IMG/VR virus record: IMGVR_UViG_3300035698_006057
Span: 1-23,986 of that record
Reading direction: 5' to 3' (one strand)
DNA length: 23,986 nt
Source: a virus
Shown here: positions 4,928 through 23,986 of the stretch, piece by piece
Layout: each line of letters opens with the position of its first letter
Position numbering within the stretch: position 1 is the first letter of the stretch
Notes under the pieces: model-generated
Told to the model about the DNA's origin: nothing
Seen by the model: the letters and a program-made list of their open reading frames with translations, nothing else
Databases searched by the model: none
Translations under genes and position numbers: made by a program

Positions 4928-5437
4928 TCAGACAACAATGCCGAGCACCACGATATCGTAGGTCAGCGATGCGCTCGTATCAGCGCCGTGGGTTACGTCC
5001 AGAATATCCGACGCGCCGTTCGCAATAGCGATGCCGGCCGCGCTCAGGATCGCCGTGCAGAACCACTGGCCGGGCTGAAGTTTCAGTTCGTCATTAGCGG
5101 CGGCGAACAGGGCCAGGGCGTTGGCGTTACCGCCAACCAGCAGCGTGTCGGTCGTTGAGTTGTTGCGGATGTACAGAAGCTTCAGGCCGTTGAAGTTGCT
5201 GGTGTCCTCGAAAATCTGGTCCACAAGCGCGTTGAAGTCGAGGTTGTCGGCGGCGGCCGTGGCCAGCGTGCGCGTGTCGTGCCACATATCCTCGATCGCG
5301 TTGACGCCGGCACCGTCAGACAGGGCCTGGCTGATGGCGATCGACATTGCGTTCAAGCCCGTGACGCCGGTGAGCCCGTCAACCTTGGTCTTGGTAACGT
5401 GGACATCCAGCTTGATATTCGCGCTTTGAATTGTCAT
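4928..5437 (-). CDS. Putative tail structural protein
   Basis: A 169-residue protein of unknown family. It has a beta-rich, Thr/Ala/Asn-rich sequence (for example LLYIRNNSTTDTLLVGG and the C-terminal SASLTYDIVVLGIVV), with no signal peptide, and looks like a virion beta-sandwich subunit. A GGAG lies eight bases before the ATG at 5437. It sits between the tail terminator-like gene and the probable tail tube gene, so it may be a tube-associated, tail-completion or decorating protein, or even the tube protein itself. No motif decides this. Confidence 0.6.
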   Translation of the reverse strand: MTIQSANIKLDVHVTKTKVDGLTGVTGLNAMSIAISQALSDGAGVNAIEDMWHDTRTLATAAADNLDFNALVDQIFEDTSNFNGLKLLYIRNNSTTDTLLVGGNANALALFAAANDELKLQPGQWFCTAILSAAGIAIANGASDILDVTHGADTSASLTYDIVVLGIVV

Positions 5438-5451
5438 CTGGTCGTCTCCGG

Positions 5452-5955
5452 TCAGGTGCTCACTTCGACCTTGCTAAGGCTCAGCCGGGTCTCCAGCGTC
5501 ATCACAGTGAGCCAGCCACGGGCGGCGGCACGCTCGATCTGCTCGTCGGTAGTGTAGTTGCCCATCCGCGTGTTCGCCACAAGGTCGGGCAGGCCCAGGT
5601 CGCAGGGCGCGGCGACGAACGCCCGGATCAGTTCCCAGTAGACAGGGAACGTCTGCTCGTCAAGGTAGAGCGAGCCCGTCCGCAGGCCGACCTCCCATGC
5701 GTGGAGAATCTCGACGGTCGAACCCTTCTGGTCGACTTGGCCCCCGGCGCTCATCACGTCGATCTCGGGCAGGTCGCCGTGGTGGAGGCCTTGTTTCTCC
5801 GGGCCCACCCCGTCGCCGCTCTTGGCCTGTATCCGTTTGATTCGGTTGCCGATATTGACCAGCTGGGCCAGCGGCTCGTGCTGCTCGATCACCGTCCAGA
5901 TGGCGTCGCAAACGCGGGTGAACGGGTCGGTGGTGTTCGTGGGCAGGGCGGCCAT
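5452..5955 (-). CDS. Tail terminator/completion-like protein
   Basis: A 167-residue protein. The N-terminal helix (TDPFTRVCDAIWTVIEQHEP) followed by LVNIGNRIK resembles the opening of phage minor tail (tail terminator, gpU-like) proteins, which begin with a helix that defines the subunit range and continue into an alpha/beta fold. The ending is a strand pattern (WLTVMTLETRLSLSKVEV). It lies between the gpG-like morphogenesis gene and the tail tube region, which is the terminator position in long-tailed phages. These proteins cap the tail tube and join it to the head. The call is supported mainly by position and length. Confidence 0.6.
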   Translation of the reverse strand: MAALPTNTTDPFTRVCDAIWTVIEQHEPLAQLVNIGNRIKRIQAKSGDGVGPEKQGLHHGDLPEIDVMSAGGQVDQKGSTVEILHAWEVGLRTGSLYLDEQTFPVYWELIRAFVAAPCDLGLPDLVANTRMGNYTTDEQIERAAARGWLTVMTLETRLSLSKVEVST

Positions 5956-7027: not shown

Positions 7028-7654
7028 TCATTTATCCTCGCAAATAGAAACCGCGCAACGCTGCGCCAGCAGCGTAACCCACTGATCAAACACCGCACGC
7101 TCGCGACCCCAGCGATTCTTGTGCTCCCTTGAGCTCACCTCCACGGAATCGCTGTCAACCCGATCGGACATCACATCGGTGACCCCGCCCAGGTCGTAGC
7201 CGTACAGCGTCGCATTGACGGGCGTCGCCGGCGCGTCGTGCCCGAAGTGCAGCGGGTCAATGGCGTACTTGTAGAGCCAGCCCAGCGCCGCCAGCCCGCT
7301 GTATTGGCCCCAGCCGCAGCGGTCGATGGGCGGGAACGGATGTACAGGGTACGCGTCCTCGTGATACCACAAGGCCCGCTCGGTGATCGCCGCCGCCGCG
7401 TGGTGGTTCTGGTGAAGCGGCACCAACTGCATTACTTGCGACCGCCGCGTGAAGATGCGTGCAGGACCGCCGCCGAATCCGGGGGGCGCGTCCTGCCCCT
7501 TCGCCGCCCAGCCGATCCACATGCTGGCGTCGCAGAACACCCACCAGTGGCAGGCGAACCGCGCAGCGGCCTTGTTGACCCCGACGATCAGGTCGTAGCC
7601 CTCGGGCTTGAATAGCCGGGCACTGGGTCCGTTGCTGATGATGGCGATGTTCAT
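7028..7654 (-). CDS. Putative glycosyltransferase with NGPS motif
   Basis: A 208-residue protein starting MNIAIISNGPSARLF. A first strand ending in a short Gly-Pro-Ser turn, followed by DLIVGVNKAA, is typical of the Rossmann-type sialyltransferase-like (GT42) and DUF115/MAF-like proteins, which use nucleotide-activated sugars. Later segments (VNATLYGYDLGGV near residue 150) fit the 'G-x-D' strand end of those folds, and HFGHDAPATP is unusual. It overlaps the upstream small gene by four bases. Together with the other transferases of the cassette it probably adds a sugar (perhaps a nonulosonic acid) to a glycan. The family link is by motif only. It is shorter than most family members. Confidence 0.5.
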   Translation of the reverse strand: MNIAIISNGPSARLFKPEGYDLIVGVNKAAARFACHWWVFCDASMWIGWAAKGQDAPPGFGGGPARIFTRRSQVMQLVPLHQNHHAAAAITERALWYHEDAYPVHPFPPIDRCGWGQYSGLAALGWLYKYAIDPLHFGHDAPATPVNATLYGYDLGGVTDVMSDRVDSDSVEVSSREHKNRWGRERAVFDQWVTLLAQRCAVSICEDK

Positions 7655-7854
7655 CCGATCCGCTCCCGATGCATCCGCTCAATGATGTCCTGTTGCTTAT
7701 GCGACGGGCACCAGCCCTTGCGCTCGGATTCGCGCATCAGGTCGTCGACAAAACCAAGCTCCCAGCCGGTCAAGCCCTCGCCGTCGCGGTCGATCTCAGT
7801 CAACATCTTAGCGTAGTCGTTGTAGTCATCGGCTGCAAGGAATGGGTCACCCAT
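7651..7854 (-). CDS. Small hypothetical helical protein
   Basis: A 67-residue acidic, helical protein. The C-terminal half has LTGWELGFVDDLMRE, then SHKQQDIIERMHRER. The pattern of Leu-Thr-x-Trp-Glu helix and Ser-x-Lys-Gln helix is one I have seen in many short phage proteins without known function. It is coupled on both sides: its start lies inside the GT9-like gene end (8-base overlap), and its stop overlaps the NGPS-protein start (7651-7654). It could be a small regulator or partner of the transferases, but nothing in the sequence shows it. Confidence 0.6.
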   Translation of the reverse strand: MGDPFLAADDYNDYAKMLTEIDRDGEGLTGWELGFVDDLMRESERKGWCPSHKQQDIIERMHRERIG

Positions 7855-8650
7855 GACGAATCACCTCCACAGCCCGGGCGGCCACCGCCTCCGGGCTGTC
7901 CCATGAATCGGGCATGATCTCAATCGGGCTGCCCATGTGATTCGCCCGCGCGTAGCGCTCGCGCTGGATCGGAATGTACGGCTGGCCACCGGCGCCCGCC
8001 TTTTCCTCGGCCGCCGTCATGCACAGGCCGGGTGCCGTCCGGCACTCGGGGCCGTGGCTAATCATCAGCAGCGGCGAGCCGCACATCACAGCCAGGTGGG
8101 CTAAGCCCGCGTCGGTGGCGATGACCAGCCGTGCACTGCGCATCGCCTGGATCGTTGCGTCCAGCGGGCGGGGGTACAGCCACGCACTCGGCAGCATGGC
8201 GATTGAATATGAGGTTTCCCTTGCCCCGCCCGCGAACACCCGCTGGCCAGCCAGTCTCAATAGATCGGCCAGAGACAGCCAGTGCTGCCAGTTCTTGCTC
8301 GGTCCGTATGTGCGGCGTCGGGGGCAGATCACTACGTCGACGGGCGGCGGGTCTTGGCGCACATGCGGCGACGGCGTGAAGTATTCGCGCTCGGCCGCCT
8401 TGTCTGGCTCAACGAACGTGAGCCCCGGCCACGACGCCCGCAGGTTCGACCACAGGTGATCGTGGCCCGCCGACCGCTTCTCGGCGTCGGGCTTGATCGG
8501 CACCGGCTTGAATATATTGGCCGACGGGTAGAGCGCTTCGAGGCCGGGCTCGCCGAACACGACCTTATCTCGCTGGTCAGCGTGGACCTGCGGCGCATGG
8601 CCCATGCAGAGCCAGCCGAACTCCCAGCGTGCTGGTAGGTATGCGATCAT
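7847..8650 (-). CDS. Glycosyltransferase family 9-like protein
   Basis: I choose the ATG at 8650 (267 residues) because it forms an ATGA overlap with the upstream stop. A GTG five codons earlier is the alternative. The C-terminal domain contains ATDAGLAHLAVMCGSPLLMI (about residues 178-197), the hallmark of heptosyltransferase-type GT9 enzymes, whose usual form is TDSGxxHLAxAxGxPxxxLFG. The upstream segment (SLADLLRLAGQRVFAGGARE) fits the nucleotide-binding side of the GT-B fold. The N-terminal domain is short and atypical, so this is a compact or partly reduced GT9. It would transfer a sugar (in the family, heptose or a similar sugar from ADP/GDP donors) to a surface glycan or protein. Confidence 0.7.
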   Translation of the reverse strand: MIAYLPARWEFGWLCMGHAPQVHADQRDKVVFGEPGLEALYPSANIFKPVPIKPDAEKRSAGHDHLWSNLRASWPGLTFVEPDKAAEREYFTPSPHVRQDPPPVDVVICPRRRTYGPSKNWQHWLSLADLLRLAGQRVFAGGARETSYSIAMLPSAWLYPRPLDATIQAMRSARLVIATDAGLAHLAVMCGSPLLMISHGPECRTAPGLCMTAAEEKAGAGGQPYIPIQRERYARANHMGSPIEIMPDSWDSPEAVAARAVEVIRHG

Positions 8651-8817
8651 CGAATTAACCGCCACTCGGTATCATTCTCGCCGCACACCCACAGGCCATC
8701 TTCATCTTCCATCATTAGATCGAACGGCCCGACGCCATGCTTAGCCCCCCAGCACGCCGCCCAGATTAGCAATGCAACCGCAACAGAAAACACGATAACC
8801 AGAACAATAATCATCAT
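8647..8817 (-). CDS. Small single-pass membrane protein
   Basis: A 56-residue protein starting at the second-last ATG of an ATGATG pair (8817), which overlaps the upstream stop. A strong GGAGG lies seven bases before it. Residues 1-25 are a hydrophobic helix (MMIIVLVIVFSVAVALLIWA), followed by a soluble acidic tail with Asp-Glu-Asp-Gly-Leu-Trp-Val-Cys. It would sit in the inner membrane with one short exposed domain. It lies between the methyltransferase and the GT9-like gene, so it may anchor or assist the glycan-modifying enzymes. No family is recognised. Confidence 0.6.
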   Translation of the reverse strand: MMIIVLVIVFSVAVALLIWAACWGAKHGVGPFDLMMEDEDGLWVCGENDTEWRLIR

Positions 8818-9350
8818 TTGAATGCCTCCAAAATGCACTCGTGATTCGTCCGCGGAAGCCACGACCTGCACGTCGAGAACCCCGCTTCATCACAAAGTGC
8901 CGCCAGTGAGTCAACGTCGTAAGCGTATCGGTGCCCGAACTCACCCATGCCCATGATGCTGTCGAGCAGCTTGTCGGCCAGCGTCAGGCCGGTCCACAAC
9001 AGCTTGCCGTTCGCGTACTGCTGGTTATAGAACTCATCGTCGCCCGCGATGTACTTCTCTGCCATGATCCGCAGGTCCGGGCACGCGATCTGCATCGAAC
9101 AGCCGGGCTTCAGCACCCGATGAATCTCGCGCAGCAACGCCAAGCCCTCGTCGCGCGTCAGGTGCTCGATGACGTGGTTCAGGATAACGTGATCGGCGGT
9201 CTCGTCGCCGTACAGCAGCCCGTCGCGGATATCGGCCTGCACGTATGGAGCGCCCGGAACCTTCGGGTTCTTAGGCGGCGGGTGCTGGTCGATACCGATA
9301 TAGCCTTCGTGTTTTGTGCCGCGTCCACCGCAGCCAACGTCAAGTTTCAT
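8814..9350 (-). CDS. SAM-dependent methyltransferase, class I
   Basis: A 178-residue protein with a complete small class I methyltransferase signature. Motif I is LDVGCGG at residues 3-9, the acidic residue binding the SAM ribose is in GYIGIDQ (Asp21), ADIRDG is near 39-44, and ADHVILNHVIEHL (52-64) with REIHRVLKPGC (74-84) matches the Methyltransf_11-like core. Such enzymes often O- or N-methylate sugars or their precursors. The gene overlaps both neighbours by four bases. In this cassette, methylation of a glycan or a nucleotide sugar is the simplest reading. Substrate specificity cannot be read from the sequence. Confidence 0.82.
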   Translation of the reverse strand: MKLDVGCGGRGTKHEGYIGIDQHPPPKNPKVPGAPYVQADIRDGLLYGDETADHVILNHVIEHLTRDEGLALLREIHRVLKPGCSMQIACPDLRIMAEKYIAGDDEFYNQQYANGKLLWTGLTLADKLLDSIMGMGEFGHRYAYDVDSLAALCDEAGFSTCRSWLPRTNHECILEAFK

Positions 9351-9904
9351 TTGCCTTGGCCCCGTAATTGAACAACGGATTGATAAAGGCCGAGCGCTTC
9401 GGGCTCAATCTGCTCGGCGTGGCGCATCCATTGATCGGGTATGTCGTGACGATTGCCCGCGCCGTTGAGTGTCAACGGCTCCAGCGTGATCCCGAATAAG
9501 TCCTTCGCCAGGATGTTCCGTTGCGACGGCAGATAAAACACCGTCTGGCCTTGCGGATTAAAGTGGTTATACAGGCTCATTATAAATCCATCGCACCCCA
9601 TCCGGGAATAGTTCTCGATAAATCCTTCCGGTGTGTCCGATTCGCACTTACACAACTCGTTCGCCATTCCGTGGTCGATCGGCTTCCATTTTACGCGGCG
9701 ACTCTTATACCAGGACCAGAGCCAATCGCCGGGATGCCGTATCATGGCGAACTCTTTGTATTCATCAGGAGGCCTGCCCCATTCATGCTTCGGCCCCGAA
9801 CCCATCCAGTTAGCCCCAGAGATTCTCAATTGCTCTCGCAATGCCGAGCCGCTGGTTCTTGGTATGTGGTGCATGCATATTTGATGATCGCGAAATAAAT
9901 ACAT
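9347..9904 (-). CDS. Sulfotransferase-like protein 1
   Basis: A 185-residue protein with the two PAPS-binding features of the sulfotransferase fold. The 5'-phosphosulfate loop is near residues 12-19 (HHIPRTSG) and the 3'-phosphate-binding segment is RHPGDWLWSWY (56-66), with Arg56 and Ser64 in the expected spacing. Sulfotransferases move sulfate from PAPS to hydroxyls or amines of sugars, proteins or small molecules. It is coupled to the methyltransferase (ATGA at 9347-9350). It begins one base after the upstream stop (TAGCATG). It is a compact version of the family. It probably sulfates a glycan made by the neighbouring transferases. Confidence 0.72.
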   Translation of the reverse strand: MYLFRDHQICMHHIPRTSGSALREQLRISGANWMGSGPKHEWGRPPDEYKEFAMIRHPGDWLWSWYKSRRVKWKPIDHGMANELCKCESDTPEGFIENYSRMGCDGFIMSLYNHFNPQGQTVFYLPSQRNILAKDLFGITLEPLTLNGAGNRHDIPDQWMRHAEQIEPEALGLYQSVVQLRGQGK

Positions 9905-9905
9905 G

Positions 9906-10478
9906 CTATTTCTGCTTCCTCATCCGCTCCATCAGCCGCCCGGCATTGGCCGGCCTCTTGCCCCAGTGTTCATCGAGGAACCCCCACCACGCGCAGAAGT
10001 TGGGCTCGCTGTTCGGCACATGCCGGGCGATGCGCTTCAGGAACGCACGGCGTTTTTCAAGGTCGGCCAAGTCGTCGTATTCCACGCTCACGCACGCGAC
10101 CTTGACCGGGTCGTACTTGTCGCTCTCCATGCTGGCCAGCGGGGCAATCTGGGCAGCCCAGTTCGCCTGTTCCGGCCCATGCAGCGCCCATATCTCCTCC
10201 CTGCCGAACCAAGGGGAATGGCCGAGTTGTTCACCGGCCGCCTGGCTATCAAGGATGTCCCGGATACCGCGCGACGTTCTCACGAACACCACGCAATCGT
10301 GCCGACGAAACAGCTTCGCCAATGTGAGCAGGCCCGCAACCGAGTGGCAGGTGTGCAGCGGGTGGTTCTCGGCCAGTTTGATGTGAAAGTAGTCGTTGCC
10401 CTGCGCGAGCATCTTCTGCACGATCGTGGTCCCGCTTCGTGGCATCCCTAAGTTGATGATCGTGTGCTTCGGCGTCAC
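9906..10478 (-). CDS. Sulfotransferase-like protein 2
   Basis: I start at the GTG at 10478 (190 residues), because its first base is the last base of the upstream TAG. An ATG at 10511 would run into the upstream gene. Residues 7-20 contain INLGMPRSGTTIV, the PxSGTT loop that binds the 5'-phosphosulfate of PAPS. VFVRTSRGIRDILDS (64-78) fits the 3'-phosphate-binding region, with Arg67 and Ser78. The C-terminal half is helical and basic. It is a second, divergent sulfotransferase beside 9347-9904, so two different positions or substrates may be sulfated. The P-loop could also read as a kinase-like loop, but the context and the RxxxxxxS region favour sulfotransferase. Confidence 0.72.
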   Translation of the reverse strand: MTPKHTIINLGMPRSGTTIVQKMLAQGNDYFHIKLAENHPLHTCHSVAGLLTLAKLFRRHDCVVFVRTSRGIRDILDSQAAGEQLGHSPWFGREEIWALHGPEQANWAAQIAPLASMESDKYDPVKVACVSVEYDDLADLEKRRAFLKRIARHVPNSEPNFCAWWGFLDEHWGKRPANAGRLMERMRKQK

Positions 10479-10633
10479 TAAGCGTCGTCCATGTTCCAGG
10501 TATCTTCGCACGCCTTGATCCGACGGCGAATCTCTTTGACAACCCTGAGGTAGTACCTCGCCGCGACAGCAAAGCAGGCAACGGCAAAAACAAGCGTAAC
10601 GACGGCGGCAATCAGGGCGGTCAAGTCAATCAT
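10478..10633 (-). CDS. Small membrane protein
   Basis: A 51-residue gene. The ATG at 10633 overlaps the upstream stop (10630-10632), AGGAG lies six bases upstream, and the TAG stop (10480-10478) overlaps the GTG of the next gene by one base. Residues 1-25 form a clear hydrophobic helix (MIDLTALIAAVVTLVFAVAC), followed by RYYLR and a basic, helical tail. This is a single-pass inner-membrane protein with a short cytoplasmic tail. It resembles short phage membrane proteins of unknown use and could be a membrane partner of the glycan enzymes. Confidence 0.6.
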   Translation of the reverse strand: MIDLTALIAAVVTLVFAVACFAVAARYYLRVVKEIRRRIKACEDTWNMDDA

Positions 10634-10935
10634 CGCAAACTCCTTGCGCGATCCGAAAGGCGTTGCGCGATCCGAAAGGCGTCACCCGAATTGAAGTCGC
10701 ACAAGTCGGCCGCGTCGCGAAGCGCCCCCATCAGATCGTTAATGTGGACTATCCGCACCCACGGGCCGCAAACAAATCCGCTTGGTTCGGCTTGATCAGT
10801 CGCCGCGATTAGCACGGCAGCGCAGTTGGCAGGCGGGGCCATGACCGTCCATGAGCAAACGCCTTTAGCGCCGACGATGCGCCCCGCGTGAAACTGAGTA
10901 ACCCAAGCGGCGCATGATTCGACTTCTTCACTCAT
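10630..10935 (-). CDS. Small hypothetical protein
   Basis: I start at the ATG at 10935 (101 residues, MSEEVESCAAWVTQFHAGRI...), one base after the upstream stop, with AGGAA about nine bases before. The protein has a beta-like core (VCSWTVMAPPANCAAVLIAA) and a helical C-terminus (HINDLMGALRDAADLCDF). I do not recognise it. A 19-base tandem duplication (10644-10681) in its 3' end changes the reading frame of the last residues. Without it the protein would end ...FRIAQGVCDD. Both versions end at the junction with the following gene. Confidence 0.6.
   Translation of the reverse strand: MSEEVESCAAWVTQFHAGRIVGAKGVCSWTVMAPPANCAAVLIAATDQAEPSGFVCGPWVRIVHINDLMGALRDAADLCDFNSGDAFRIAQRLSDRARSLR
10644..10681. 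repeat. 19-base perfect tandem duplication
   Basis: The sequence TTGCGCGATCCGAAAGGCG occurs twice back to back on the plus strand (10644-10662 and 10663-10681). It lies in the 3' end of a coding gene. Because 19 is not a multiple of three, it shifts the reading frame there. The perfect identity suggests a recent event. Confidence 0.9.
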
Positions 10936-10936
10936 A

Positions 10937-11617
10937 TCACAGATTCCTCGCAATCCGTTCGGGGTTCTCCGGGTCACGGTAACGCTTGCGGCTGTTGACC
11001 CCGCAGTACGGATCGAAGATCGCGCCCATGTCGATCAGCGTGCACTGCTGCGGCCAGAGGTCGTGGATCAACACATTCGTCAGCATCGACGCGCTGAACG
11101 TCACAACGTCGGGCTTCAGGTCGCGGATCGCCGCGGGCAGAAGCCCGAGCAGCATGTCGCACATCGTGTAGCAATTCACCGACGGCACCGAAATGCGGTC
11201 CATCGGAATCATCACCTCTCGTGGCAGGTCCGCCAGGTGCGGCGGGCCGACCATCAGTACCCGCTTCGACCGAAGCGCACGGATCACCGGGCCTAGCTCG
11301 CCCCTCCAGTTCGCATCGCTCAGCGTGTTCTTTTCCACCCAGTCGATCGGCGGCGGCGCGTACTCATCCAGCCACGCGTTGACGCGGGGCATCATCCGCG
11401 GGCCGGGGTCCAGGCCGTACATACACGACTCCGGTTGCATCAGCGTATAGATCAAGTCGTCGCCCAGCGCCGTGAAGTATTCATGACCGTCGCAGTTGCG
11501 GCCGCGCTCGTGCAGGATCGCGTTCCACTCGCCGTCTCCGTAGTTCGCCTGCGCGAACGGCGGGCCGTTGGCGATCATGTCCGCGTACTGGTCAATGGTA
11601 ATGTTGCGCGGTGTCAT
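10937..11617 (-). CDS. DUF1792/GT-D-like glycosyltransferase (putative)
   Basis: I start at the ATG at 11617 (226 residues, MTPRNITIDQYADMI...), which overlaps the upstream stop in an ATGA and has AAGGAG upstream. The main signature is NYGDGEWNAIL (residues 25-35), matching the RFGDGE motif of DUF1792 proteins, shown in that family to be GT-D-fold glycosyltransferases. The C-terminal half has a paired-strand region (KRVLMVGPPHLADLP) and ends with TLIDMGAIFDP, similar to the D-x-G strand of the family. The gene lies within the glycan cassette. A longer start at 11815 would add an implausible Arg/Ala-rich extension. Confidence 0.6.
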   Translation of the reverse strand: MTPRNITIDQYADMIANGPPFAQANYGDGEWNAILHERGRNCDGHEYFTALGDDLIYTLMQPESCMYGLDPGPRMMPRVNAWLDEYAPPPIDWVEKNTLSDANWRGELGPVIRALRSKRVLMVGPPHLADLPREVMIPMDRISVPSVNCYTMCDMLLGLLPAAIRDLKPDVVTFSASMLTNVLIHDLWPQQCTLIDMGAIFDPYCGVNSRKRYRDPENPERIARNL

Positions 11618-12366
11618 TTGAACTCCTTGCCGTCTTTGCCAACATGCTCCCACTCTTCGTAGTTGCCTACATGCTTCGCTTTTGATGGATGCCCTGAGAG
11701 TTCCGCGATCCGCCGCTGTCGCGGCTCGTTCGTCTTGCCATCGCTCGGGCCGCGGTTCTCCCGGCTGGCAATCAGGTGCTCGATGATCGGCTTGCAGCCG
11801 TCCGGGTACGCCCACGGCTTATCGAACACGTAGCAATACTCGCCCGGCAGCCGCGCGATGCGCAGCGACGGCAGGCAGGTGGTCAGATACCAGAGGTTCT
11901 TTTGACCGCCGCCTTCGCGGATGCCGTGGAACCGCAGCGACGCGTTCATTGACTGCCACGCCTCGGTCAACTCGCGGGCGGCGGCGGTGTCCCCAAAGTA
12001 GAGCGTGCCGCTCAGCAGGCGGTTCATGTGGCCGTGCTCGCCGCCCGGCACCGGCCGGTACGTCGGGCCTTTGAAGTAATGCGCCCCCAAGTCAAACCCC
12101 TCCGCTTGCAGGTCGTTGAAGTACCCCGAGCAGTCCGAATGGACGAACGCGTCGGCGTCGACCCACACCAGCGGTCCGCGGATTGATCGGCGGCAGTCGT
12201 TGATGAACCGCGCCTTCTCAGCCGTCGCGTCGTACCAATCGCCGCCGTTCAGGTCGATGCCCTCGATATAGTGGGTCATACCGCATCGGTCCAGCGACCG
12301 ACGCATGCGGGCAGCCTCGCCCTCGTAGGCGGTATCGCGCGTGTAGAAGCTGATGACGGTGGTCAT
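11614..12366 (-). CDS. GT-A type glycosyltransferase with DxD motif, paralog 2
   Basis: A 250-residue protein starting at the ATG at 12366, which overlaps the upstream stop and has AGGAG about eight bases before it. VWVDADAF (residues 67-74) gives the DxD motif (Asp70, Asp72) that binds nucleotide sugar and metal in GT-A enzymes. GDWYDAT with KARFI (about 42-54) precedes it. Near the C-terminus PGEYCYVFDKPW and IIEHLIASR are shared with the neighbouring gene. The two proteins thus have a common core and arose by duplication. It would transfer a sugar from a nucleotide donor, probably to a growing surface or virion glycan. The C-terminal Lys/Glu-rich tail is unique to this copy. Confidence 0.72.
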   Translation of the reverse strand: MTTVISFYTRDTAYEGEAARMRRSLDRCGMTHYIEGIDLNGGDWYDATAEKARFINDCRRSIRGPLVWVDADAFVHSDCSGYFNDLQAEGFDLGAHYFKGPTYRPVPGGEHGHMNRLLSGTLYFGDTAAARELTEAWQSMNASLRFHGIREGGGQKNLWYLTTCLPSLRIARLPGEYCYVFDKPWAYPDGCKPIIEHLIASRENRGPSDGKTNEPRQRRIAELSGHPSKAKHVGNYEEWEHVGKDGKEFK

Positions 12367-13079
12367 TCCGCGTTCTCCTGCTTGCTCAGCCACGCCTCGA
12401 CTTCCTTCACCCGCGCATCGCGCCGTGCGCGCTGCTCGTCGGAATGAGCATCGGCGCAGCCCACGCGGCTCGCCTGAAGGTGCTCGACGATCGGGTCGTC
12501 GCAACGCCGGCCGTGCGTGTGGGGCTCGTCGAATATCCAGCACCATTCAGGGGGCAGGTGCCCAATAACCCAATCACCAGACAGCCCCGCCACCACAGCT
12601 TGTCCATTCCAACTGTTCTGGCCCGCCGCCATCCGCTCATCGACCGCATCGCACCACGCGTTACACCAGCGCAGCGCAGGCAGCGTGTCAGCGATCCAAA
12701 TCGTTCCGGTAAGATATCCGGCCATCCGCTCACCGTGCGGCCAGCGGGCCATCCACGGCCGCATGGCAACGTCATAGTCGGACAGGGCGGCAATCTCATC
12801 AGGGGTGGGCAGGCGGCGGAATACGGCGTCGACGTCAACGTAGAGGATTGGTCCGCGGGTCGTGCACCGGGCCTCGCGGATCAGGCCGGCCTTCTGTGAG
12901 GTGTTGGCGTACCAGTCGCCACGGTCCGGGGCAATCTTCAGAACCAGCAGCGACAGCCAGTCCAGCGGCAGCAATGAACGCCGAAGACGCGTCGCCTCTT
13001 CGGCGTATAGCCCCCCAGTGTGATAAGCAAAGATCGTGAAGTGGGGGGCGTCCACTGACATGCCCTCATCATATGACAT
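12363..13079 (-). CDS. GT-A type glycosyltransferase with DxD motif, paralog 1
   Basis: A 238-residue frame from the ATG at 13079, or 232 residues from the in-frame ATG at 13061. The 5' end is an 18-base tandem duplication, so either copy may supply the start. LYVDVDAVF (79-87) carries DxD at Asp82 and Asp84. GDWYANT and QKAGLI (54-68) and the C-terminal PEWCWIFDEPH with IVEHLQASR match the downstream paralog. It is the first gene of the cassette and is preceded by a promoter-like TTGACA-N16-TATGAT element. In the duplicated copy the -10 lies six bases from the ATG, so the transcript could be leaderless. Confidence 0.72.
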   Translation of the reverse strand: MSYDEGMSVDAPHFTIFAYHTGGLYAEEATRLRRSLLPLDWLSLLVLKIAPDRGDWYANTSQKAGLIREARCTTRGPILYVDVDAVFRRLPTPDEIAALSDYDVAMRPWMARWPHGERMAGYLTGTIWIADTLPALRWCNAWCDAVDERMAAGQNSWNGQAVVAGLSGDWVIGHLPPEWCWIFDEPHTHGRRCDDPIVEHLQASRVGCADAHSDEQRARRDARVKEVEAWLSKQENAE

Positions 13080-20141: not shown

Positions 20142-20975
20142 TTAGTGGGGGGAGACAATCAGAACCTCAGACACGCTGCCGTTCTTCTGGTCGCGGCTCG
20201 TCTGCTCGATCCATCGCCATTGGGTCTGTGGGTAAAGCTCGCGTATCAGCGGATGGTCGCCGTAGCGTATCACCACGCGGCAACACTTGAACGAACCAAG
20301 ACGCCCGGCCAGGCGGCGCTGCTGCGCCTCGCCGAACCGATGCTCGTAATCGTCACCAGCGTCGGGCCACGGCGCATCGACATACAGGCCGTGGCCGTCG
20401 CGGTCCTTCACGCTATCGATGAACTCGAACGCGTCGAGGCATGAGAACTCCCACCGCTTGAGGCACTGATGCCACGCCTCCAGCGATTCGACCGCCGACT
20501 GGAACCTCTTTGCCGAACCGCCGCCGCTCGCAGTCCACCGCATCGCCAGCGACTGATTGAACTCGCCGCGCCTGCCGGCGTGCCCACCGCGCCCCATCCA
20601 GCAAGCGGTGAAGTACGCGGCCGCCCAGTGTGGCTGCGCATTGCCTCCGCGCGTGCCCGCATCGATGAACAGACCCATCTCGCGCAACTCGCAGATGCTT
20701 TGCGCGTTCTTCAACTCATCGGGATGAAAGAGCATCCCATCGAGGTATTGAACCATCTCTGCCTTGAGTTCCGCGTCTGCAATGCAGCGCGCAAGATTGA
20801 TGACGTGGCGGTGCAAATCGTTCGCCACCCCGCCGCGGGCCTGGATGTGGGGTAGCTCAGGCATCCCACCGCAAAACGGAACGCCGCACCATGCCAGCTT
20901 GCCCAGCGTCTCGCCGACTCGCCGGGCAAGCATCCGGTTCGATCCGAACCACGGGGCTATGGTCTTGATCTTCAT
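20142..20975 (-). CDS. D12-class adenine DNA methyltransferase, divergent
   Basis: A 277-residue protein with the D12 (Dam-like) N6-adenine methyltransferase layout. APWFGSNR (7-14) matches PWFGGK of the family, FCGGMPE (34-40) is the SAM-binding F-x-G-G motif, and VANDLHRHVINLAR (50-63) matches the ND element. The catalytic motif IV, normally DPPY, reads DAPW (200-203) in GLYVDAPWPD. The fold seems intact but the key Pro and Tyr are replaced, so it may be inactive, changed in specificity, or act on an altered base. The gene sits between terminase and portal with a promoter-like sequence directly before its ATG, and only nine bases separate its stop from the portal start. Confidence 0.72.
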   Translation of the reverse strand: MKIKTIAPWFGSNRMLARRVGETLGKLAWCGVPFCGGMPELPHIQARGGVANDLHRHVINLARCIADAELKAEMVQYLDGMLFHPDELKNAQSICELREMGLFIDAGTRGGNAQPHWAAAYFTACWMGRGGHAGRRGEFNQSLAMRWTASGGGSAKRFQSAVESLEAWHQCLKRWEFSCLDAFEFIDSVKDRDGHGLYVDAPWPDAGDDYEHRFGEAQQRRLAGRLGSFKCCRVVIRYGDHPLIRELYPQTQWRWIEQTSRDQKNGSVSEVLIVSPH

Positions 20976-20981
20976 GCCTCA

Positions 20982-21009
20982 ATCATACCCAACCCGGCCC
21001 GCATGTCAA
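20982..21009 (-). promoter_or_regulatory. Promoter-like element of the D12 methyltransferase
   Basis: On the minus strand TTGACA (21009-21004), 16 bases with GGGCCGGG, TATGAT (20987-20982), then TGAGGC and the ATG at 20975. It matches the element at 13086-13113 in hexamers, spacing and spacer. The -35 overlaps the stop region of the terminase gene. A start site about seven bases downstream of the -10 would give a leaderless message. Confidence 0.65.
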
Positions 21010-22367
21010 TACGCCTCGAACGACAGCCTGCCGATGCTCTCAACGATCCGGCGGCACGGCCGCAGGTAGTGGACCCAGTACCCCAGCGCGTCGGACGAGT
21101 GCGTGTACCGCGAGTCGGACTTAACCAGTTCCTTGCCACGGTCGTCCCACCGTACATGGGCGAAGTCGGCGCGTAGGCGATCGCACTTCGGGTCAATCCG
21201 CAGGTGCTTCTCGCCCTTCACGTCCAGCAGGGCCAGGCCCACGGCGTTTACACGGTCGGCAACGAACGGGTTGGACTTCGGCACGCGAAGCTCGAAGTCG
21301 AGGCCCGCACCGTGAAGCACCTGGGCCACAATGTCGTAGCACGATTCGCCCGTGCCCTCCCAGCCGCTGTTGCCCGACGAGTCGCCGAACACCCGCAGCC
21401 CCTGCCATTGCGTGTTCCAATTCTCGCCGCCATAGCGACGCGCGAACTCGGCCAGGCATGTACGGACATCCCAGCGCGGGCCGTGCAGTTCATCAGCCAC
21501 GTGGAACCGATCGCGGGTCGAATCGTATTGACCCACCAGCGCGTGCATGCCGGGGTTGATGTTGAAGTCGAGGATCAGGTCAAGCGGCAGCCCGCCCAGC
21601 AGACTCGTCGGCTTCAGGTGCCGCTGCTCGTCGTACAGGGCGTAGGCGAACGAGCCGCCGCGGGCGATCGCGCCGCCCTCAAGGTACTGCTCGATCAGTT
21701 CGGGGGTCAGCGTCTCGGTGTTCGCCGCAAAAAACGATTCGGCCGTTGGGTTGTCGGCCGTCCGTGCCCGGTACAGAGCCCGGTCGTTACCGCGCCGCGC
21801 CTCCTCGAATACCCGCGTCTGGTCGCCCTCGTTCGTGTACGTGTAAATCACCTGGAGGATGCGGGCTTTGGGGTGACGCACGCGGCCCTGCAACTGGAGC
21901 ATCGGGTCGTTGCGCGGATTGTCGCGGTCCTCGCGCCACCGGCTCGGCTCGTCGCCCCATGCGGCGCCGACCTGCCAGCCCGTGATGCGCTCGGACTTCT
22001 CGGCGCTGCGGCAGATGATCGACGCGCCGATCCTCGGTAAGACGTACGTCCGCTTGCCGGCCAGCCAGCGGAACGCGACGCCCCATTCATCACAGGCCGC
22101 CTCGAACGCCGGGTACATGAAGTCTTGCATTGTGCCGTAGGTCGGCCCGATCATCGCGCTACCGACGCCCGTCGTCTTGCCGTGCTCGTCGCGTGCGTTA
22201 TAGATCGTGTCCGCCAGCAGCTTGCGGGCACCGATGTACGACTTGCCCGACATCCACCCGCCTTCAAGGAAGATCTGGTGCACGCCGCCATTGACGCCGC
22301 GCCAGTCGTTCCATGCGTAGAACTGGCCACCGGGGCGCGGCTTGAAGTCGAGGCGCTCAATCCGCAT
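21006..22367 (-). CDS. terL: Terminase large subunit
   Basis: I start at the ATG at 22367 (453 residues). It has GGAGGG five bases upstream and overlaps the small subunit stop by 11 bases. A longer frame to 22547 adds an Arg-rich leader in the shadow of the small subunit. The ATPase part has an altered Walker A, GGWMSGKS (36-43), and Walker B with catalytic acid AAWGDE (Asp139, Glu140). The C-terminal RNase H-like nuclease has LILDFNINP (Asp267), RVFGDSSG (Asp329) and HSSDALGYW (Asp426). It packages DNA into the prohead through the portal. All key acidic residues appear present. Confidence 0.92.
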   Translation of the reverse strand: MRIERLDFKPRPGGQFYAWNDWRGVNGGVHQIFLEGGWMSGKSYIGARKLLADTIYNARDEHGKTTGVGSAMIGPTYGTMQDFMYPAFEAACDEWGVAFRWLAGKRTYVLPRIGASIICRSAEKSERITGWQVGAAWGDEPSRWREDRDNPRNDPMLQLQGRVRHPKARILQVIYTYTNEGDQTRVFEEARRGNDRALYRARTADNPTAESFFAANTETLTPELIEQYLEGGAIARGGSFAYALYDEQRHLKPTSLLGGLPLDLILDFNINPGMHALVGQYDSTRDRFHVADELHGPRWDVRTCLAEFARRYGGENWNTQWQGLRVFGDSSGNSGWEGTGESCYDIVAQVLHGAGLDFELRVPKSNPFVADRVNAVGLALLDVKGEKHLRIDPKCDRLRADFAHVRWDDRGKELVKSDSRYTHSSDALGYWVHYLRPCRRIVESIGRLSFEAY

Positions 22368-22785
22368 CGTCGCCCTCCACCGCCTGGTGCATCGGCGCCT
22401 CGACATGCGCGTCCGGGTCGATGTGCGAGCCGGCCGCCGACCACGGGCCGTCTGGCAGACGCAGCACGTCCTCGGCCTGATCGGTCTCGTTGCCCAGCTT
22501 GTCGCGGTCGAGTTGCAGGCGCTCGATCGCCAGCGCGGTCTGGGCACCGTTGTGCTCGAACATCTGAATCACACGGGCGGCGCGCAGCCGCACCCGCTCG
22601 TCGTCGCTCTTCAGCATCAGCCGCAGCGCCTCGCGCGCCGCGGCGTCGACCCACTCGGGCTTGATGTTCCAGGCGTTGACCACCGCCCGCTCTAACAACT
22701 GCATAGACATCCGAGGCTTGCGACCGCCGGGCATGGTCAGTACGTCGTCCCCCTGACCCCGATTGCTTTCATCGTCGCTGCTCAT
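22357..22785 (-). CDS. Terminase small subunit (putative)
   Basis: A 142-residue protein directly upstream of the large subunit with an 11-base overlap at its stop. The start is polar and acidic (MSSDDESNRGQGDD), then GGRKPRMSMQLLERAVVNAW and a helical core (DAAAREALRLMLKSDDERVR), with an acidic, Pro/Asp-rich C-terminus. Small terminases have an N-terminal DNA-binding helical region and oligomerising helices, which this could be. The assignment relies on position, size and helical character. It follows the repeat-rich region, which could be its recognition site. Confidence 0.65.
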   Translation of the reverse strand: MSSDDESNRGQGDDVLTMPGGRKPRMSMQLLERAVVNAWNIKPEWVDAAAREALRLMLKSDDERVRLRAARVIQMFEHNGAQTALAIERLQLDRDKLGNETDQAEDVLRLPDGPWSAAGSHIDPDAHVEAPMHQAVEGDDAD

Positions 22786-23423
22786 AATCGAAGTTTAGCG
22801 AGCGGCCATCACATGCCGCCAGTGCCGGCCCTCCTATACACACGCACGAGGAAGAACAATCAAGCCCTCACGCGTACGCGCTGTGACGAGGCGAGGTCTT
22901 GGCCTCCCTCGCGTATAAGACTACGTTTTAAGGCGCGCATACAGCGCGCGTATGCGCCACAATCCAAGCCATACAAAAGGCTTACGCCTCCAAAATCACC
23001 GCGCGCATACGCGCGCATACAGCGCGCGTATGCGCCATAATCCCACTCGCGATAAGGGGTTGCGCCTCCAAAATCAGCGCGCATACGCGCCGCCAGACTT
23101 TTTTCGTGTTTGGCTTTTTTCTCTCTCACGCGGATGCTGTATGCGCATTGACGTAAATCAAGCGGCGGCATGGCTTTGCGGCGCATACAGGCGTGTATGC
23201 GCGCGTATGCGCGTCAGACGTAAGATGTGGTGGTTACTGGCTTTGCGGCGCATACGCTGAAACGGGTGCGTGTATGCGCGCGGGGTGTTGAAGGGTGTTT
23301 GTCACGCCTGCAGCTTACCATGCGACGGCCGGCGGTGCAAGGGGCTTAGCTGGCCTGTACGGGCGTTTCGAAGCGGTGGGGACGTCGGCATCGACCTGGC
23401 GGATGGGGCTCTCCTGGTGGCGT
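22786..23423. other. 638-base region without a convincing gene
   Basis: It lies between the methyltransferase end and the terminase small subunit start. The central part (22933-23280) is the GCGCATAC repeat array. The part next to the terminase (22786-22932) holds a weak TTGATT...TATAGG candidate with a long 19-base spacer (22863-22833), which I do not consider established. The part next to the methyltransferase (23281-23423) shows no ORF, hairpin or repeat I can support. Open frames on both strands inside the array encode the repeats and look like by-products. Confidence 0.75.
22933..23280. repeat. GCGCATAC dyad array with two longer direct repeats
   Basis: The 8-mer GCGCATAC occurs six times (22935, 23003, 23013, 23079, 23181, 23248) and its complement GTATGCGC six times (22950, 23028, 23139, 23195, 23205, 23272). 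Dyads with 7 bases between arms occur at 22935-22957 and 23013-23035, one with 6 at 23181-23202. Around the first two dyads a unit of about 68 bases repeats (22933-23000, 23011-23078), sharing CGCCTCCAAAATCA. Possible roles are a packaging (pac) site, replication origin or operator array. Confidence 0.85.
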
Positions 23424-23986
23424 TCAGGCCTTCGTGGCGGCGAGTTCGGCCTTCTTCCCGGTGAGATTCTCCCACCGCTGGACGATGACGTCGCAGTAGG
23501 CGGGGCTGATCTCGATACCGTAGCAGCGGCGGTTGAGTTGCTCGGCGGCTATAAACGCCGTCCCCGAACCGGCGTAAATATCGGCCACCACGTCGCCACC
23601 GTCGCTGTTATTGAGGTAGGCGTTGGCGTACAGCGCGACCGGCTTCATCGTCGGGTGGTCGGCACACCTCCGCTCCCGGTCAATCTCCCACACGGTCGTC
23701 CGGTGCTCGCCCCGCATTGGCCGTTTGTGCCGCTTGCCCCACGTCAGCAGAATGGGCTCGTGCGCGTAGTCGTAATCGAGCTTGCCCATACTGAACGTCG
23801 GCTTGTTTTTTTTCCAGATAAGCACATGCCGCGGGGCCAGGCCCGCGTCTTGCATCATCGTCATCATCATCATGCCGAGGTCGCCACCCTGCGGGGCGGT
23901 GACAAACAGCGTGCAGTTGTCGGCTATGATTTCGGTTCGCAACGACACAAACGCCGGAAGTAGGGCCGCCTTCAGTTGCGCGGGGG
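23424..23986 (-). CDS. DNA methyltransferase (N4/N6 type), 5' end cut by the window edge
   Basis: The frame stays open to the right edge, so only the last 187 or so residues are seen. A GTG at 23948 is an internal possible start, but the frame upstream fits the fold and I take it as coding. The seen part has LFVTAPQGG, VLIWKKNKPTFSMGKLDYDY, EPILLTWG, HPTMKPVALYANAYLNNS, and ADIYAGSGTAFIAAEQLNRR with CYGIEISPAYCDVIVQRWE. This is the motif X/I end of N6/N4 methylases (DxFxGSGTT-like, here DIYAGSGTA, then GxExxxxY). The catalytic DPPY would lie beyond the edge. It probably methylates phage or host DNA. It is transcribed toward the repeat array. Confidence 0.85.
   Translation of the reverse strand, partial: PAQLKAALLPAFVSLRTEIIADNCTLFVTAPQGGDLGMMMMTMMQDAGLAPRHVLIWKKNKPTFSMGKLDYDYAHEPILLTWGKRHKRPMRGEHRTTVWEIDRERRCADHPTMKPVALYANAYLNNSDGGDVVADIYAGSGTAFIAAEQLNRRCYGIEISPAYCDVIVQRWENLTGKKAELAATKA

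Follow-up and report, generated by a model that had tools for sequence, protein, structure and literature searches.

The array in the gap before the terminase genes

The uncultured virus record IMGVR_UViG_3300035698_006057 of IMG/VR (here the window, analysed over its full 23,986 bp) contains a 638-bp noncoding gap with a dense array of one short sequence repeated on both strands, which is probably, judging from its sequence and from comparable loci, an iteron-type origin of DNA replication situated between the early and late modules. The gap is bordered by a DNA methyltransferase gene on one side and by the terminase region on the other, all of these genes being encoded on the - strand (Table 1). 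The array ends approximately 150 bp from the start (22785, - strand) of the open reading frame (ORF) presumed to encode the small terminase. A preliminary description of this DNA had placed the array immediately upstream of the small terminase, which holds for the location, while the identity of the ORF is given by its position only as no match above the cut-off was obtained to Pfam, PHROG or any homologue. A single-sequence structure model of this 142-aa candidate was too weak and was set aside.

Table 1. Features of the array and of the genes that border it.
Feature	Position	Strand	Basis or remark
N6/N4 DNA methyltransferase, C-terminal part, cut at contig end	23424..23984	-	PF01555, 7e-21
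ORF in small-terminase position, homologue undetected	22357..22785	-	Position only
Terminase large subunit (TerL), clear	21006..22367	-	Relatives at 40-48% identity
GCGCATAC/GTATGCGC sites, left half	22935+, 22950-, 23003+, 23013+, 23028-, 23079+		Exact matches
GCGCATAC/GTATGCGC sites, right half	23139-, 23181+, 23195-, 23205-, 23248+, 23272-		Exact matches
Left arm	22935..23086		Six GCGCATAC sites, order + - + + - +
Right arm	23139..23279		Six sites, order - + - - + -; mirrors left arm
Central spacer without sites	23087..23138		52 bp, T-rich with T tracts; candidate DNA-unwinding element
Direct-repeat copy 1, 72 nt	22933..23004	+	With 7-base-spaced dyad; repeat comparison
Direct-repeat copy 2	23011..23082	+	82% identical to copy 1, offset 78 bp
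20-nt perfect inverted repeat, left half	23002..23021	+	Pairs with 23194-23213; also an alternating purine-pyrimidine tract
20-nt perfect inverted repeat, right half	23194..23213	-	Pairs with 23002-23021

Twelve exact copies of the 8-mer GCGCATAC (complement GTATGCGC) were located in 22935-23279, six per strand, in agreement with the twelve copies in under 350 bases that had been described. The claim that this number far exceeds chance was also borne out, with 1.14 copies expected in the whole window, a maximum of five in 100 shuffles and a Poisson estimate of approximately 1e-30 for twelve copies within 350 bp. The genome-wide search for the 8-mer that had been proposed as a check was run on both orientations of the whole record and no further copy was identified outside the array, the copies thus being confined to it rather than spread over the record. 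No copies with one mismatch were present inside the array, the closest being at 22874. The base after the 8-mer was a purine at 12 of the 12 copies, tandem sites were spaced 10 bp apart, or about one helical turn, and the sequence between sites had diverged while all twelve 8-mers were unchanged. Exact sites, the lack of near-misses, diverged spacers and 10-bp tandem spacing are together the mark of a DNA-binding protein, and the pattern fits sites that have been kept exact for one.

The strand order of the sites is unchanged by reverse complementation, and the inter-site gaps are mirrored as well (15, 53, 10, 15 and 51 versus 24, 43, 10, 14 and 42; p=0.004 by gap shuffling), a symmetry of strand order and spacing that the preliminary description missed. 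Four of the six mirror pairs of sites, taken from the outermost to the innermost, share a centre within 1 bp. The AT-richest 30 bp of the central spacer (23095-23124), with 33% GC, ranks among the lowest 0.3% of the contig. Two dyads with the same 7-base spacing (22935/22950 and 23013/23028) were found as reported and each lies inside a direct repeat, although the repeat length is 72 nt and not the 68 bases given earlier.

The word GCGCATAC is itself fully alternating in purines and pyrimidines, and the longest alternating tracts of the contig are in the array. This long alternation is due to the iteron, as alternation outside of the 8-mers is ordinary. The array was dismissed as coding sequence because the 78-bp repeats retain the motif and would change the encoded residues. 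A sequence within the right arm, TTGACGTAAATCAA at 23148-23161, has a likeness to an FNR/CRP-type box which is probably due to chance.

Similar arrays beside replication genes

The origins of phage-inducible chromosomal islands (PICIs) are described as always having an AT-rich region with an iteron set on either side (PMC6092414), and the PLE origin contains iterons bound by the RepA of PLE (PMC7145576). The preliminary description knew of no element with this consensus, which holds for the 8-mer, as GCGCATAC was not found as a described element in the literature searched, but not for the architecture of the array, which is that already described for PICI origins (PMC6092414). Like the origins of PICIs and Staphylococcus aureus pathogenicity islands (SaPIs; pri-rep-ori, PMC6092414), the window has two sets of short iterons around an AT-rich segment in a phage-related genome, in which terS is sometimes nearby. 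The PICI origin is located immediately 3' of rep, whereas the window array is beside a methyltransferase gene, uses another iteron and has no rep in the contig. Exact short repeats clustered within approximately 250-350 bp in both orientations, and two repeat sets flanking an AT-rich segment with six sites on either side, were both present in the window. An iteron origin is the best explanation of the array.

A comparator set of 80 viral loci was gathered by the VapE domain alone, of which 79 were scanned and 42 were positive with the array detector. Twenty-seven non-identical arrays, a count from which only arrays with identical starts were dropped as the set includes closely related contigs, start at most 600 bp 3' of the VapE-type helicase gene (median 19 bp) and consist of 6-13 exact 7-mer copies on both strands, with a median span of 255 bp and many different motifs. 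Of these arrays, 96% contained a stretch whose local GC was among the lowest 5%, and 85% had at least two sites on either side of that stretch. Away from this position, arrays of at least seven copies occurred once in 1.1 Mb. Several arrays were mirror symmetric about one centre (L185, L187, L203, L218 and L226). The window resembles arrays such as those of L185, L203, L218, L226 and L235, in which 6-13 exact 7-8-mers are distributed over both strands within approximately 250-330 bp, with a low-GC segment inside and in some cases global mirror symmetry. These arrays differ from the window in their motifs and in abutting a helicase gene, while the window encodes no visible helicase.

Arrays were also found in loci that had not been selected by VapE. 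These included ten copies of GGAACCCA with a Prim-Pol-VapE gene on one side and the terminase genes on the other (L165/L167), eight copies of GTTGGACA that directly follow a VapE-domain gene on its 3' side and precede a small-terminase candidate by 1.2 kb (L028), an array before a DUF5906 helicase gene (L094) and one by DnaA_N and DnaD-like genes (L037). The array of L054/L074 is inside the gene for phage replication protein O; this lambda-type origin resembles the window in having repeated short initiator sites in a phage genome and differs in its repeat layout and its location within a coding gene. No replication-gene assignment was made for the arrays of L169 and L084, the former being a AACTGAAA-type repeat array (5144-5675) near unassigned genes and 4.2 kb before TerL. 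Arrays of like architecture were therefore mostly beside replication-initiator genes (VapE, DUF5906, protein O, DnaA_N/DnaD-like), with terminase genes sometimes slightly further away.

Several VapE loci (L183, L184, L185, L187, L188, L190, L200, L202 and L203) had an alternating purine-pyrimidine tract of 16-41 bp on the 3' side of the helicase gene, no more than 450 bp away. The tracts were longer than any in the upstream sequence, and the loci were mainly those closest to L028. In L183, L184, L188, L190, L202 and L203 the tracts were Z-DNA-prone, 27-41 bp in length and in or near the origin-like region.

Alternative explanations and the packaging genes

The preliminary description had suggested a pac site and regarded an origin, an operator array or a partition site as equally possible. 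The origin is the one supported, and the evidence favours it over pac. At a pac site, the small terminase would bind the 8-mers and the large terminase would cut within the T-rich core, from which headful packaging would start, as it does at the two hexamer groups of P1 pac. What speaks for this is position: the array is bipartite and a short distance upstream of the presumed small-terminase gene, and two DNA methyltransferase genes are nearby. These are reminiscent of P1, whose pac is under the control of Dam methylation. The hexamers in the P1 record are also in two groups around a gap near terminase genes, TGATCA at 459, 466, 478 and 493 and TGATCA/G at 589, 601 and 612. The P1 repeats are however six bases long, in one orientation and inside pacA, differing from the window in word length, orientation and symmetry, and the array detector found nothing in the P1 record. 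A P1-like pac would consist of hexamers on a single strand, within or beside the gene for the small terminase, and the array does not have this form. No recognisable DNA-binding fold was apparent in the presumed small terminase, for which the structure model was of low confidence. Repeated motifs are known from the pac region of phiBB-1 (PMC11008901).

Relatives of the window by TerL (40-48% identity) kept the gene order as far as the capsid gene, with a methyltransferase upstream as well in three of them. Relatives with the order methyltransferase, small terminase and TerL, or small terminase and TerL, had neither the motif nor a comparable upstream array. The methyltransferase and small-terminase genes of L129 are 9 bp apart, by comparison with which the window has an extra region of approximately 0.6 kb. 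The replication-type genes differed among relatives and included a family A polymerase (L141), a DnaB-like helicase (L137) and a Prim-Pol with DUF3987 (L125). No such array was present in the 650-bp region after the Prim-Pol gene of L125, and no viral relatives of the L125 primase were found. A search for closer host or phage relatives yielded one Planctomycetota metagenome-assembled genome with a TerL of 43% identity. The array and the packaging genes therefore do not move as one unit, and the array is not a fixed part of these genes in the family. As pac sites can diverge, its absence from relatives weakens a pac function without excluding it. TerL was also identified in a few of the VapE loci, and there the array was 1.3-2.4 kb upstream of TerL, so nearness to terminase genes alone is no argument for pac. 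A pac site is thus unlikely, if the least unlikely of the alternatives.

An array of operator or activator sites governing the - strand late operon, from the terminase onward, is quite unlikely. The late genes begin just downstream of the array, and exact sites at helical spacing would suit a regulator, but no sigma-70-like promoter, the type that the search covered, was found in 22600-23600. Twelve sites in mirrored arms around a T-rich core are also more than one promoter needs, and the comparator arrays come after helicase genes.

A palindromic mobile repeat, or a hairpin-structured RNA in the transcript from the methyltransferase to the terminase, would account for the extra sequence relative to L129 and for the - strand RNA of the region folding far better than shuffles (z = -6.4). 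This is highly improbable. A dyad scan of viral contigs found none with more than three exact GCGCATAC copies in one cluster, a tandem scan found just same-strand tandems or scattered copies, and searches of viral contigs, phages, plasmids and 392 Planctomycetota genomes identified no related copy of the array. The 8-mers are exact in spite of diverged spacers, including the innermost sites which have no near partner, and a hairpin does not need a single fixed 8-mer at 10-bp tandem spacing. Least probable of all is a centromere-like partition site, for although plasmid centromeres such as R1 parC likewise have short repeats in two groups with a spacer between them, the window repeats are on both strands in mirror order, no par genes were found in the window by ORF list and family searches, and a weakly matching ParB-like domain in L129 belongs to a methyltransferase fusion and gives no evidence of partition.

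Other genes of the window included a portal, F, protease, capsid and gp36 of Mu-type or related. A second DNA methyltransferase, of the D12 class (PHROG 56), is located at 20142-20975 between TerL and the portal gene. The region 7028-13079 between the capsid and tail genes contains glycosyltransferase-9-like, sulfotransferase-like (weak) and methyltransferase-like genes, an unusual cargo for a late operon.

A candidate origin and its predicted initiator

What was observed directly is the set of exact sites in mirrored order, the AT-rich core, and the same architecture by replication helicases in other viruses. On the interpretation of the array as an iteron origin, an initiator made by the phage would bind the 8-bp sites in the left and right arms; it is probably a helicase or primase-helicase, with a gene beyond the cut end of the contig. 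The six-site arms would build oppositely oriented complexes flanking the T-rich core, which these complexes may then melt, and the loading of two helicases would give bidirectional theta replication starting at the array. It is very unlikely that origins like those of VapE-type loci, including that of the window, are opened through a B-to-Z transition sensed or driven by the initiator.

Several points weigh against an origin. The contig has no replication gene and stops within the methyltransferase, the initiator being unseen because the contig is cut before any such gene. The array adjoins methyltransferase and terminase genes, whereas comparator arrays usually abut a helicase gene, and GCGCATAC is unlike every comparator iteron. 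Apart from the published PICI class, the comparator origins are themselves computational predictions. A stricter one-centre mirror test, in which strands were also shuffled, was marginal for the window (p=0.06), and the site-free core is short (52 bp, with largest gaps of 41-153 in the comparators) and only moderately AT-rich. An iteron array at 11784-12030 of L189 is 3.5 kb from the VapE gene and 1.3 kb before TerL, which indicates that an array can separate from the helicase gene.

The array provides a candidate replication origin for an uncultured phage family. As a simple rule, exact short repeats that occupy both strands and surround an AT-rich core, in the interval from early genes to terminase, would mark a replication start and not necessarily a pac site. 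The comparators suggest that phages with VapE-type helicases commonly have an origin layout that has been described as unique to PICIs.
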